A DNA stretch of 64,000 bases from a virus. A program made the position numbers and the translations under genes. Position 1 is the first letter of the stretch, and every line of letters begins with the position of its first letter. Positions 17,944-60,753 of the stretch are shown here, piece by piece. The stretch lies in the IMG/VR virus record IMGVR_UViG_3300013126_000028, positions 1 to 64,000 of that record; one strand, given 5' to 3'. The notes under the pieces are model-generated. The model was given only the letters and a program-made list of their open reading frames with translations, was not told where the DNA came from and did no database searches.

Positions 17944-19683
17944 TTAAGATATATCTGTTAATTCTCCGGGAATAATTTTACCATTAATATCAATACCTTT
18001 AGCTTTAACTTTTGGTTCGTGTAATTCATTAGGGTCTGTGAATACTTCTACTATACACCTTTGTGGATTTTTAAAAACTTTAGACAAAGTACTATCTATA
18101 TTTTTATTAGACCTAATACTATAATATTTATATTGAAAACATTTCGCAACATCTTCAAATGACGGAATGGATACTCCTGTATTCTGATCTGTTGCAACTA
18201 AGTGTCCTTTAAAGAATGAATTTTGTGTTAATTTAATGGATAAATATCCTTCATTATTAATAATCACAATAATAATAGGTAAATTATGATATTTGATAGT
18301 TTCTAATTCTTGTAAATTCATCATAATACTACCATCGCCCTCGATACAAATAATTGGCTTTTTACAACCATAGTATGCTCCAATAGATGCTGGTAAGCCA
18401 TAGCCCATTGGTGCTGTTCCTTCATTACTAAATAATTGCTGATCTCTTGTAAGATTCATGGTTTTTAAAGGAACAACATGAGCTGTTCCATCACTAGTTA
18501 CTATAACAGAGTCTGGTTTAAGATATTTTTCGAGTTTTTTACTAAAAACATATGTACTAACATAGCTCTTTAATGATTCGTGTTTTGGCAAAACCAAGTT
18601 TTCTTGTGATCTTTTATCGACAACATATTTTTGCCACGACTCAATATTTGACCCAGTAATATCTTTTGATATAACAAAAAAATCTTTTAGATCGATTTTC
18701 CATTTATATGTTGTTTTACTAAAATTTAATTTGGTTAATTCGTTCTCATCTATATCAATTATTATCTTTTTAGCTAACGGAGCAAATTTTTGACTATCGT
18801 ATCCTATCATCTTAGGATTTAATCTCGATCCTAGTGATATAATCAGATCACTTTCTTGAATAAGACAATTAGAGGTTTTTTGCCCCAACAAGCCGAAACG
18901 ACCAGCATAATATTGATAATCGGTATTTATTATATCTATCGCAGAGTGTGGGCCGGACATAACCGGTATCTTTAATCTATTTAGTAATTCTTTTAATTGT
19001 TCTTTGGTTCCAGATGATTTAATTCCGCCGCCAATAACTATTACTGGTTTTTTAGATTCGGTAATTAATTTTTTTAATTTATGTAGATAATATTTGTTTT
19101 TTATTTTATTTAGTAAAGATTTTGTATTATTAGCATAATAATGATGTAAATCCTCGGGGTTAACTTCAGCGCTTTGAATATCTAATGGAATGTCGATCCA
19201 TACCGGCCCCTGACGATTACTGACAGCTAGATGATATGCCTTTTCTAATTCGTAAAGAATATTATTAGCATCTGATACTAAAACAGAATACTTAGTCATA
19301 CTCTTAACGGTATCTACTATATTAAATTCTTGTTGTCCAATTTGTCTACATCCAGTATTTTTGCTTAATTGATTTGTTGGAACCTGACCGGAGATAATTA
19401 TCATTGGTGCAGAATCTTGAAAAGCACACAATACTCCGGTTAATGCGTTAGTTCCTCCTGGTCCGGTAGTTACCAAAATGCACCCAGGTTTTAATTTTGT
19501 TTTTGCATAACCCTCTGCGGCCATAGCACATGCTTGTTCGTGATGATTACATATATATTTTATAGACGTGTTCTTTCCCAAAGAATCTGTTAGGTGCATA
19601 CATCCTCCGCCAGAAACTGTAAAAACAGTATCTATACCTTTTTCCGCTATAAAATTAAAAACCAAATCTGAGACTTTTATCAT
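17944..19683 (-). CDS. ThDP-dependent acetolactate-synthase-like enzyme
   Basis: 579 residues, full length for the family. Pyr domain with catalytic Glu in NHHEQACAMAAEGYAK, GPGGTNALTGV; central FAD/ADP-like domain (VIVIGGGIKSSG); PP domain with the ThDP-Mg motif GDGSIMMN...IINN. It resembles IlvB but sits among sugar genes, like YerE, the ThDP enzyme that adds a two-carbon branch to a 3,6-dideoxy-4-keto sugar. A similar job here is inferred from the neighbouring RfbH-like dehydratase. The four-base overlap with the NeuB-like gene shows coupling. Confidence 0.82.
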   Translation of the reverse strand: MIKVSDLVFNFIAEKGIDTVFTVSGGGCMHLTDSLGKNTSIKYICNHHEQACAMAAEGYAKTKLKPGCILVTTGPGGTNALTGVLCAFQDSAPMIIISGQVPTNQLSKNTGCRQIGQQEFNIVDTVKSMTKYSVLVSDANNILYELEKAYHLAVSNRQGPVWIDIPLDIQSAEVNPEDLHHYYANNTKSLLNKIKNKYYLHKLKKLITESKKPVIVIGGGIKSSGTKEQLKELLNRLKIPVMSGPHSAIDIINTDYQYYAGRFGLLGQKTSNCLIQESDLIISLGSRLNPKMIGYDSQKFAPLAKKIIIDIDENELTKLNFSKTTYKWKIDLKDFFVISKDITGSNIESWQKYVVDKRSQENLVLPKHESLKSYVSTYVFSKKLEKYLKPDSVIVTSDGTAHVVPLKTMNLTRDQQLFSNEGTAPMGYGLPASIGAYYGCKKPIICIEGDGSIMMNLQELETIKYHNLPIIIVIINNEGYLSIKLTQNSFFKGHLVATDQNTGVSIPSFEDVAKCFQYKYYSIRSNKNIDSTLSKVFKNPQRCIVEVFTDPNELHEPKVKAKGIDINGKIIPGELTDIS

Positions 19684-25565: not shown

Positions 25566-26564
25566 TTATAAGACTTTAGCCGCTATTAAACATCCTTTTG
25601 CTACAGAATGAATAGGATCATTAGCATGAACCACCTCTTTTATTGGTAGAGGAAAGTTATTTTCTATTAGTTTTTTATGAAAAGTTTCTACATAACCTTT
25701 GGCTAACGATGTTCCTCCAGCAACCACTATCTTAAGAGGTTCTTTAAACTTCGGTAAACTTTTGTGATCTGTTAAGGCAAACGCTAATTGTTTAGTGGTA
25801 TAATCAATTAGTCTTTCATAATAAGAACTTACTGCTACTAATATAGGATTATCATTATTTTCTCCTATAACAAATCCGCCCGCTTCTTTTTCCGCTTGAA
25901 CAACAGTATCTTTTTCTCCTGTTGCAATAGAGGTCATTCTGTCGATCCAATCCCCGCTACGCACAGTAGACAGTTTAACTGTTGGCTCACCGTTTAACAT
26001 AACACAAATATTTTGCATACCACTCCCGGCCGACACAGAGATTCCAGTATAATCATCATTCTCTAATTCTGCATAACAAATTGCTTCTGCTTCATTAATA
26101 GCCCTAGCGTCATAACCACATTCTGTAAAAATTGATTTTAAGACATCTTCATGATATCCAATATCAAAATCTTCGTCTTCTACATCTACTGGTTGAGCAG
26201 GAACGCAGAAAACTAACTTTTCCCCTGGTTCTGATGGACTACCAGCAACTTCTTTTAAGATAAAGGCTAAAATTCTTTTAGCATCTTTTTCTTTTGCCGA
26301 AACTACTCCTTTATACATTGGCCTTTTAGCGTTATCATTTCTTTCTATAGCTTTTTCTATAGCATCTTTACCTAATATGATAAATGAACCGTCACTATCT
26401 TTAATAAAAGTTTTGCTCGCTAATCCTTTTTCTATCATTTTAGTTGCTACTGGAGTAGTAGGTTTGATAACATAAAAGGCATCTCTAAAATCTTTGTATT
26501 CTATTTGACCCTCATTATCTTTGGCTTTTACTATAAAGCTAGTACCAACATCTATCCCGATCAT
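25566..26564 (-). CDS. Actin/Hsp70-fold ATPase
   Basis: 332 residues. Phosphate 1 loop IGIDVGTSF, connect region and phosphate 2 region TGISVSAGSG, adenosine motif IVVAGGTSLAKGY. This is the ParM/MreB/FtsA-type actin fold. Phage members form filaments or act like small DnaK-type ATPases. There is no substrate-binding domain of Hsp70. It is followed in the operon by a small membrane protein, which might anchor it. Confidence 0.78.
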   Translation of the reverse strand: MIGIDVGTSFIVKAKDNEGQIEYKDFRDAFYVIKPTTPVATKMIEKGLASKTFIKDSDGSFIILGKDAIEKAIERNDNAKRPMYKGVVSAKEKDAKRILAFILKEVAGSPSEPGEKLVFCVPAQPVDVEDEDFDIGYHEDVLKSIFTECGYDARAINEAEAICYAELENDDYTGISVSAGSGMQNICVMLNGEPTVKLSTVRSGDWIDRMTSIATGEKDTVVQAEKEAGGFVIGENNDNPILVAVSSYYERLIDYTTKQLAFALTDHKSLPKFKEPLKIVVAGGTSLAKGYVETFHKKLIENNFPLPIKEVVHANDPIHSVAKGCLIAAKVL

Positions 26565-59408: not shown

Positions 59409-59436
59409 ATTATACATCAAGCCGGTTACTTGTCAA
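59409..59436 (-). promoter_or_regulatory. Sigma70-type promoter
   Basis: Minus strand: TTGACA, 16 bp, TATAAT, a consensus -10; overlaps the end of the interrupted phosphoesterase gene. Confidence 0.75.
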
Positions 59437-59999
59437 TAGTCGCTCTAGAATTCATGATTTTTTGTATTTCTTTAAAACTAAATGGTTCTCCAAAAGGTTT
59501 GTTATAGTTGATGCAATTATCAACACCAACATCTAGTGTTTTTCTGGAAGAATTTCTATCTTCACCATCAAGTTTGGAGTGACTGTGGCCGAACAACATA
59601 TATGATCCCTTATGACTAGCGGGCCAAACTCTGGCCGCATAGTGACTCAGGTATATTCGTTGGTTGCAATATATTATCTCATTTACATCCTGTACACTAG
59701 CGAATCCTTGAAGATCATCCTTAAAATCATTACGTCGGTCATGATTACCATAGTTCAAATGAACATTTTGACAAACTATTCTTGATCTATATTCTATAGG
59801 TTTCTTGCCCTTAAAACAAAAATCGCCCAGTATATACAGAGTATCATCTATATCGACAGTCTCATTGATTCTGTCGAGTATAACTTGATCCATTATGTGA
59901 ATATTATCAAATGGACGATTACAATGCTTGATTATATTATTATGACCTTAGTTAGCCCGAAGGCTAACCAAAGTGAGTATCACTTGTAAAATATATCAT
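59426..59999 (-). CDS. Metallophosphoesterase interrupted by a bypass-like element
   Basis: Part one (59967-59999) codes MIYFTSDTHFG, directly followed by a UAG stop. Part two resumes after 22 nt at 59944 with HNNIIKHCNRPFDNIHIM and runs to 59426. Joined, the 183-residue protein has the standard phage calcineurin-like order: SDTHFGH (metal motif 1), LGDFCFKG, YGNHD, LSHYA and FGHSH. The downstream ATG at 59893 alone would give a protein lacking the first Asp-His metal pair. The perfect join at HFG/H shows that only the 22-nt insert breaks the gene. Bypassing, or inactivation, is discussed separately. Confidence 0.82.
59945..59969 (-). other. T4 gene 60-like translational bypass element
   Basis: The 22-nt gap starts with UAG right after the GGU codon at 59967-59969 and ends with GGU at 59945-59947 before CAU. 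The RNA folds into GGUUAGCC-UUCG-GGCUAACU, a stem of seven Watson-Crick pairs plus G.U that includes the take-off codon and the stop. Matched GGU codons could serve as take-off and landing sites for peptidyl-tRNA-Gly. T4 gene 60 has the same parts: matched Gly codons, UAG and a UUCG hairpin. Confidence 0.75.
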
Positions 60000-60021
60000 G
60001 ATATCACTTATTTTTCTCCTT

Positions 60022-60187: not shown

Positions 60188-60400
60188 CTATACCATTTCT
60201 CTTGTTGTCGCAACAATTTTAACACCATCAAATTCATGCCTATCACAAGAATCATACATACCACAAGGATAAGGCTTATTCACTACTTTAAAATTAAAGG
60301 AGTATTCTGCCTCACCATAAGTTTTTCTTAATTTGGCATAAAGTATTTCTTTAATATCTTCTACTGATAAATCAATCTCTATCTTATTCTTAATTTTCAT
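60188..60400 (-). CDS. Hypothetical protein, tandem paralogue A
   Basis: 70 residues. KIEIDLSVEDIKEILYAKLRK, then YSFNFKVVNKPY and DGVKIVATT; alternating helix and strands. About half of the residues match the next upstream gene, so the two arose by duplication. Function unknown. Confidence 0.68.
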   Translation of the reverse strand: MKIKNKIEIDLSVEDIKEILYAKLRKTYGEAEYSFNFKVVNKPYPCGMYDSCDRHEFDGVKIVATTREMV

Positions 60401-60404
60401 TAAC

Positions 60405-60608
60405 CTATTCCCTTTCTCCTGTTATCACAACAATTTTAACACTATCAAATTCATATTTAATACAAGAATCATACATACCATAGGGTTTGTTTACAACCTT
60501 AAAATTAAAAGAGTAATCACCAGGGTAGATTGTTCTTAGTTTATTATAAACCATATCTTTGATATCTTCTACTGACAAATCAATTTCTATTTTATTTTTA
60601 GTTTTCAT
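60405..60608 (-). CDS. Hypothetical protein, tandem paralogue B
   Basis: 67 residues from ATG 60608 with GGAG eight bases upstream. KIEIDLSVEDIKDMVYNKLRT and DYSFNFKVVNKPYGMYDS mirror the downstream copy. Even the intergenic bases before the two starts are alike. Confidence 0.68.
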   Translation of the reverse strand: MKTKNKIEIDLSVEDIKDMVYNKLRTIYPGDYSFNFKVVNKPYGMYDSCIKYEFDSVKIVVITGERE

Positions 60609-60753
60609 GTTTTTCTCCATTTATCATAAACTTTCCTTTGTATTGAAATCGCCCCCATTATTGAGCGTCATTTGTATAGAACAAAGAGAGGCTACAGGGC
60701 GATACTCTTAGCGATCAACCTAAAAGTGTCTGTTAATTCAGATCTTGTTTTAT
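60609..60753. other. Intergenic region with ATCGCCC/GGGCGAT inverted repeat
   Basis: 145 bases without a credible gene. ATCGCCC and GGGCGAT are separated by about 45 bases and could close a larger RNA structure. No convincing promoter or T-run was found. Confidence 0.35.

Follow-up and report, generated by a model that had tools for sequence, protein, structure and literature searches.

The window, a stretch of 64,000 nucleotides from a virus (IMG/VR record IMGVR_UViG_3300013126_000028, positions 1 to 64,000), carries on its minus strand a calcineurin-like phosphoesterase gene that is interrupted within its first metal-binding motif (Table 1). A short reading frame, ORF1 (ATG ATA TAT TTT ACA AGT GAT ACT CAC TTT GGT, with the ATG at 59999-59997), ends on a GGU codon that is directly followed by UAG, and a second GGU, 22 nt further on, opens the remainder of the enzyme, ORF2. 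This gap length includes the second GGU, the same convention that gives 50 nt for T4 gene 60. ORF2 aligns from its first residue with the phosphoesterase family phrog_547 (E 6.5e-35), and the phosphoesterase family profile matches the solved structure 1xm7 (E 2.2e-12). Within the gap, UAG and UAA occur in frame 0, and the landing frame has UAA immediately 5' of GGU; thus, neither one frameshift nor one readthrough event would be enough to restore the protein. Joining the two parts, in turn, yields SDTHFGHxNII, the motif that is uninterrupted in relatives such as L012-L020. The DNA of the gene has no match among named phages.

Table 1. Positions of the interrupted gene and its associated elements in the window, with the roles proposed for them
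Feature	Positions	Strand	Remarks
ORF2, remainder of calcineurin-like phosphoesterase (GHNNIIKHC...)	59426..59947	(-)	173 codons + stop
Landing codon GGU	59945..59947	(-)	Followed by CAT AAT AAT ATA ATC (HNNII...)
Bypassed segment, 22 nt	59945..59966	(-)	UAG through landing GGU
Take-off stem-loop, 13 bp, UUCG loop at 59958-59961	59945..59974	(-)	Contains core UAGCCUUCGGGCUA, identical to T4 gene 60
UAG stop directly 3' of take-off	59964..59966	(-)	Likewise in T4 gene 60 and all other elements
Take-off codon GGU	59967..59969	(-)	GGU in 9/9 phosphoesterase inserts and in L005
ORF1, MIYFTSDTHFG	59967..59999	(-)	First metal-binding motif of the phosphoesterase; last codon is take-off GGU; uninterrupted in L012-L023
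5' stem-loop abutting take-off codon	59971..60009	(-)	Codons 6-10, at the end of ORF1, are base-paired with leader AAGUGAUAUC
AATAAGTGATAT, probably left over from the 3' end of an endonuclease gene since lost	60001..60012	(-)	Matches coding 3' end (..NNK stop) in L006/L024
AGGAG, probable ribosome-binding site (from sequence)	60016..60020	(-)	16 nt 5' of AUG

The stem of the take-off hairpin extends from 5 nt 5' of the take-off codon to the landing codon and encloses take-off, stop and landing. The 51-nt region folds at -18.5 kcal/mol, compared with a shuffle mean of -8.0 (z -5.1), and none of 200 shuffles is as stable. It is a take-off stem-loop with a stable tetraloop in which both the take-off codon and the stop are included. 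The original prediction had described this arrangement at 59945-59999, namely MIYFTSDTHFG ending in GGU-UAG with a second GGU 22 nt on, the exact restoration of the family motif by joining, the UUCG-capped stem and a gap that simple suppression cannot bridge, and all of it is confirmed. What it had passed over are the minus strand, a conserved 5' stem-loop, and the inability of an 11-residue ORF1 to hold the nascent-peptide signal of T4.

Elsewhere in the window, a second, ordinary metallophosphoesterase gene (PF00149; 57242-57925, minus strand) lies 1.5 kb off, intact and without an insert, and two adjoining, very similar small ORFs of 70 and 71 residues (60188-60620, minus strand) form an apparent tandem duplication. 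The minus strand also encodes a phage actin-like protein (25566-26564; match to Volactin, PF25216, E 1.7e-56) and a complete three-domain thiamine-pyrophosphate enzyme resembling acetolactate synthase (17944-19683); the phage furthermore has RIIA, Thy1 and UvdE.

Alleles with and without the insert, and a shared core

A search with ORF2 leads to 19 loci. When the sequence just 5' of the conserved GH is compared, L011 (on the same contig as L009), L024 and L025 (on the same contig as L006) have the hairpin at the same codon, and L012-L023 are uninterrupted there (e.g. TTT GGA CAT). Pattern scans add L003, L010, L299, L382 and the divergent L040, with a 26-nt gap, to the carriers of the insert. 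Together, the same-codon insert is present in the window and in eight other phage contigs from seven other sample numbers, nine in all, which rules out an assembly error. Among 80 sampled homologues, the motif is contiguous in 74, carries the insert in three and is unclear in the remaining three; related phages, to which the original prediction had pointed, hold alleles of both kinds.

The ORF2 proteins of the insert-bearing contigs are between 40% (L040) and 88-89% (closest relative) identical to that of the window. The take-off and landing codons are GGU/GGU in the window and seven relatives and GGU/GGA in L040, in which GG alone is matched; this third-base mismatch counts against a bypass, as do the changes at conserved residues in L010 (SHY to LHY, GH to AH). 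Variation within the inserts preserves the structure: the 3' arm reads CU, UC or UU, each of which pairs with the GG of the take-off codon, and the loop is UUCG or UGCG. These are one-sided changes, which support the pairing without proving it. In the ORF2 tree the insert-bearing genes are not one clade, if only weakly so (p-AU 0.047), and recombination is suggested by L299 and L382, in which near-identical leaders precede ORF2 of different types (MDQV and MNKT).

The same hairpin is found in L005 inside an unrelated gene, a family 9 glycosyltransferase (PF01075), arranged as RSGAFG, UAG, hairpin and GDNIILTPV, with a 21-nt gap and the codon pair GGU/GGC; nine relatives of 61-70% identity are uninterrupted at that codon. 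At the take-off site of T4 gene 60 (GGA UAG CCU UCG GGC UA), all 14 bases 3' of the Gly codon are common to the window. Gene 60 of phage S16 passes from GGU to GGC over 48 nt, and contig L057 from GGG to GGA over 51 nt. Across the elements the gap lengths are therefore 21, 22, 26, 48, 50 and 51 nt and fall into all three frame classes, so that one frameshift is unable to explain the set; landing by codon pairing predicts such a spread. Two further gene 60 variants were seen, one in Acinetobacter phage KARL-1 (L208 1495-1570), with an apparent Asp pair GAU/GAC replacing Gly at take-off and landing, and one in Shewanella phage Thanatos-1 (L204 1495-1560), with the loop UUAG instead of UUCG.

The motif GGNTAGCCTTCGGGCTA occurs in 92 stretches of viral contigs, mostly intergenic marine hairpins, and a control scan of 85,000 prokaryote genomes located it at 76 places, none of them bypass-like. 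The motif alone is not diagnostic; gene context and a restoring landing frame alone mark a bypass. A wider stem pattern brought in extra terminators among the matches listed, and the rate given by a loop-wide filter is not independent, since its input was already biased towards matches. Several candidates were rejected: L004, L007 and L008 are terminators, in L002 the hairpin lies 3' of the stop of a capsid-like gene, L047 is a stop plus a hairpin, and in the Bacillus phages Moonbeam and Eldridge the hairpin is translated in frame as protein. A separate recurrent hairpin, CTCTCTCACTTTCTCAATTGGGTAGCCTTCGGGCTACCC, apparently intergenic and always in the same short context, was observed at many loci (L030-L116) of many largely marine-looking phage contigs and is possibly a regulatory or processing element.

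A second structure accompanies the hairpin. In the window, the 5' stem-loop folds at -9.3 kcal/mol (z -2.9), and a stem-loop ending 0-1 nt 5' of the take-off codon is present in 10/10 elements (-9.3 to -11.4 kcal/mol), with z between -2.5 and -4.0 in the five folded with shuffles. At this position the six empty-site phosphoesterase relatives give z of -1.9 to +0.7, that is, weak or absent folding. In the glycosyltransferase gene the 5' arm is formed by the residues DAQ, which are missing from its more weakly folding relatives, and L299 and L382 have another leader, which still pairs with the end of ORF1. In T4 and the gene 60 relatives, too, the 45 nt before take-off fold, and studies of T4 describe that a 5' stem-loop of such kind helps to drive the ribosome forward (PMC5009743, PMC11194080). 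In the window, the distance of 16 nt between ribosome-binding site and AUG, and the position of the AUG partly within the 5' stem, count against the bypass reading.

Selection on the landing frame

One alternative holds that two products are made, ORF1 being a leader peptide and ORF2 starting at an internal AUG (landing-frame codon 19, 59893) or at a non-AUG codon. An AUG is indeed conserved at the internal position, but this Met is just as conserved in uninterrupted relatives, the sequence before it contains no ribosome-binding site, and a protein started there would be without the D-x-H metal ligands. Moreover, over the 18 codons that begin with the landing codon and precede the internal AUG, pooled pS is 0.50 and pN 0.10 across six insert-bearing loci (beyond the internal AUG, pS is 0.68 and pN 0.20 in the same loci). 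The low pN relative to pS shows that the landing frame is under protein-level constraint even ahead of any start codon, and two separate products are thus very unlikely. In the same comparison, nucleotide identity is 0.9-1.0 over leader, ORF1 and hairpin, and about 0.3-0.6 in the upstream and 0.6-0.9 in the downstream flank.

The same selection pattern bears on the possibility that the gene is split or decaying, with an insert that kills the enzyme and an ORF2 that is a relic. The two stops in frame 0 would fit such a loss, gene splitting is known for homing endonucleases, and L010 is altered at some conserved residues. Nevertheless, the insert is kept in nine contigs, the frame of ORF2 is intact and retains the metal-binding residues, and pN/pS of ORF2 is 0.2-0.3, also upstream of any start codon, which makes a relic very unlikely. 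A decayed downstream gene, which the original prediction had named as the outcome that would speak against it, was not encountered: ORF2 is intact and under purifying selection.

Probable homing cassette and proposed hop

Three of the insert-bearing relatives, L006, L024 and L040, have an ORF of about 284-293 residues whose end lies 34-40 nt 5' of the take-off codon, and upstream of this ORF the original gene start is left as a stump (IYFTSDTHFGH, MIYFISDTHFGH and MVNTWFTSDMHLGH), each with TAA after it. Judged by sequence, the ORF is a probable homing-endonuclease gene. The three proteins are homologous (45% identity between L024 and L040) and match phrog_23051, not phrog_655 of the gene 60 endonucleases; for NUMOD3, L040 exceeds the cut-off (33.2 vs 20.4 bits), L024 falls slightly short of it and L006 gives no match. 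No HNH model gives a match, and the endonuclease structure prediction is poor (pLDDT 43). In BLASTP, a short weak match is all that links them to the S16 endonuclease (E 0.001 for the pair), and no match to that of Thanatos-1 was obtained. Distant relatives of the candidates are located among tRNA genes in large phages, and free-standing homing endonucleases are often located among tRNA genes.

The endonuclease gene is missing from the record of the window and from those of the remaining carriers of the insert, though these records may be fragments. The stretch before ORF1 that resembles the 3' end of the endonuclease gene measures about 25 nt or more in L003, about 14 in L009 and L010 and about 10-12 in the window. 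The window seems to be a derivative that lacks the endonuclease, and in the simplest history a cassette delivered the endonuclease gene, a first-exon copy and the hairpin, with later loss of the endonuclease. The endonuclease gene and the gene-start stump of the three relatives independently support the mobility of such elements, at which the original prediction had guessed.

Comparison best supports a T4-like bypass, as originally proposed: the insert is conserved in nine contigs, the frame past it is under constraint, the 14-nt core is identical, and a third, unrelated gene carries the element. As a whole, the observations are very probably explained by a programmed translational bypass whose insert arrived in a homing cassette, and in the window gene ribosomes most likely hop over the 22-nt hairpin. 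We infer the hop itself, as well as its efficiency and the protection from cleavage, from these sequence relationships.

Alternatively, the 22 nt might be removed from the mRNA or DNA, as a tiny intron, by RNA processing or by DNA excision, and a perfect hairpin between repeated GG(U) could signal such processing. This is highly improbable: every element retains a UAG immediately 3' of the take-off Gly codon, although an intron has no need of it, and we know of no self-splicing element as small as 22 nt. In T4 gene 60, furthermore, the same core is bypassed by ribosomes (PMC5009743, PMC11194080). Least probable of all, and hardly credible, is frameshifting or double stop readthrough, for which the frame-keeping 21-nt insert of L005 and the landing frame of L024, without a stop before GGU, could be cited, but both frames have stops in the window, L003, L006, L009, L010, L299 and L382, the gap lengths span three frame classes, and the added residues would fall within the catalytic motif.

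In a programmed bypass, the ribosome would initiate at 59999, synthesize MIYFTSDTHFG and arrive at the take-off GGU, with UAG and the UUCG stem-loop within or close to the A site; termination would be disfavoured. The peptidyl-tRNA-Gly would then release GGU and re-pair with the landing GGU 22 nt on, and translation would resume at CAU to give a single intact phosphoesterase. As the stem alone would place the take-off and landing codons at the base of one hairpin, a hop over the folded hairpin is more probable than a long slide. As in the proposal for T4, the 5' stem-loop would fold again behind the ribosome and so promote its forward movement. The insert may have entered the gene within a homing cassette composed of an endonuclease gene, a first-exon copy and the hairpin; the hairpin would split the cleavage site, with bypass keeping the gene functional. 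The window would since have lost the endonuclease gene and retained the hairpin.

Comparison with known bypass systems

Within the open literature searched, T4 gene 60 is the sole established case of long-gap programmed bypass outside mitochondria. The cases named in the open-access PMC literature searched are T4 gene 60, possibly a Streptomyces phage, Prevotella in an unconfirmed report, and the yeast mitochondrial byps; a phosphoesterase or glycosyltransferase bypass is not among them. Reviews raise the search for counterparts, especially shorter ones, and the use of bypass by other genes of T4-related phages (PMC5009743, PMC3014915).

The window element shares with T4 gene 60 the Gly take-off codon followed by UAG, the Gly landing codon, the UUCG take-off stem-loop with identical core, the stem-loop upstream of take-off, the position within a catalytic motif of a phage gene and, in three relatives of the window, the adjoining endonuclease gene. 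It differs in that the gene encodes a phosphoesterase, the gap is 22 instead of 50 nt and the landing codon lies inside the take-off stem. Efficient T4 bypass depends on the KKYK nascent-peptide signal, which acts 25-30 residues from the P site (PMC5009743). In the window, ORF1 has 11 codons and leaves no room for such a signal about 30 residues before take-off. A T4-like Shine-Dalgarno sequence (GAG 6 nt before landing) is likewise missing from the window, which has GGGCUAACUAA there, and no stable 3' stem-loop is formed, since the 3' side folds at only -1.5 kcal/mol; all three absences weigh against a bypass. The window element resembles T4 in core, stop, take-off stem and 5' stem-loop but not in nascent signal, Shine-Dalgarno and 3' stem-loop; it would therefore work like gene 60 and yet represent a distinct, shorter form, in which the stem brings take-off and landing together; bypass without a nascent-peptide signal is predicted.

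The gene 39-mobA-gene 60 arrangement of T4, S16, KARL-1 and Thanatos-1 similarly has a homing-endonuclease gene in a functionally critical gene region with a bypass segment downstream, and the endonuclease-bypass cassette of T4 is among the subjects of a review (PMC5009743). The endonucleases of S16, KARL-1 and Thanatos-1 match phrog_655, whereas the probable ones described here match phrog_23051 with NUMOD3, and here the cassette carries its own first-exon copy, with the old gene start left as a stump. The byps of Magnusiomyces capitatus mitochondria are also short inserted blocks that are bypassed in the translation of many genes (PMC5009743). They differ in being mitochondrial, many per genome and seemingly context-independent. 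To our knowledge, they have no shared hairpin core or nearby endonuclease gene.

The present elements extend these systems by two genes and by nine phosphoesterase alleles that have empty-site counterparts, and they offer a candidate minimal element about 75 nt long. The need for a nascent peptide, the shortest possible hop and the view of bypass hairpins as a tolerated scar of homing thereby become directly testable. There is also a practical side, in that gene finders label such genes broken or place their start wrongly. As eight other contigs share the hairpin in the same gene and an unrelated sugar-transferase gene has it too, ribosome hopping would seem to be a small type of mobile element that recurs, and not a one-off. 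We consider it reasonably probable that a portable module of about 20 nt (Gly codon, UAG and UNCG hairpin, with a stem-loop 5' of it) spreads among phage genes with different homing endonucleases, shields the interrupted allele from cleavage, keeps the gene alive and needs no nascent-peptide signal; if this is true, T4 gene 60 is one elaborated member of a wider class.
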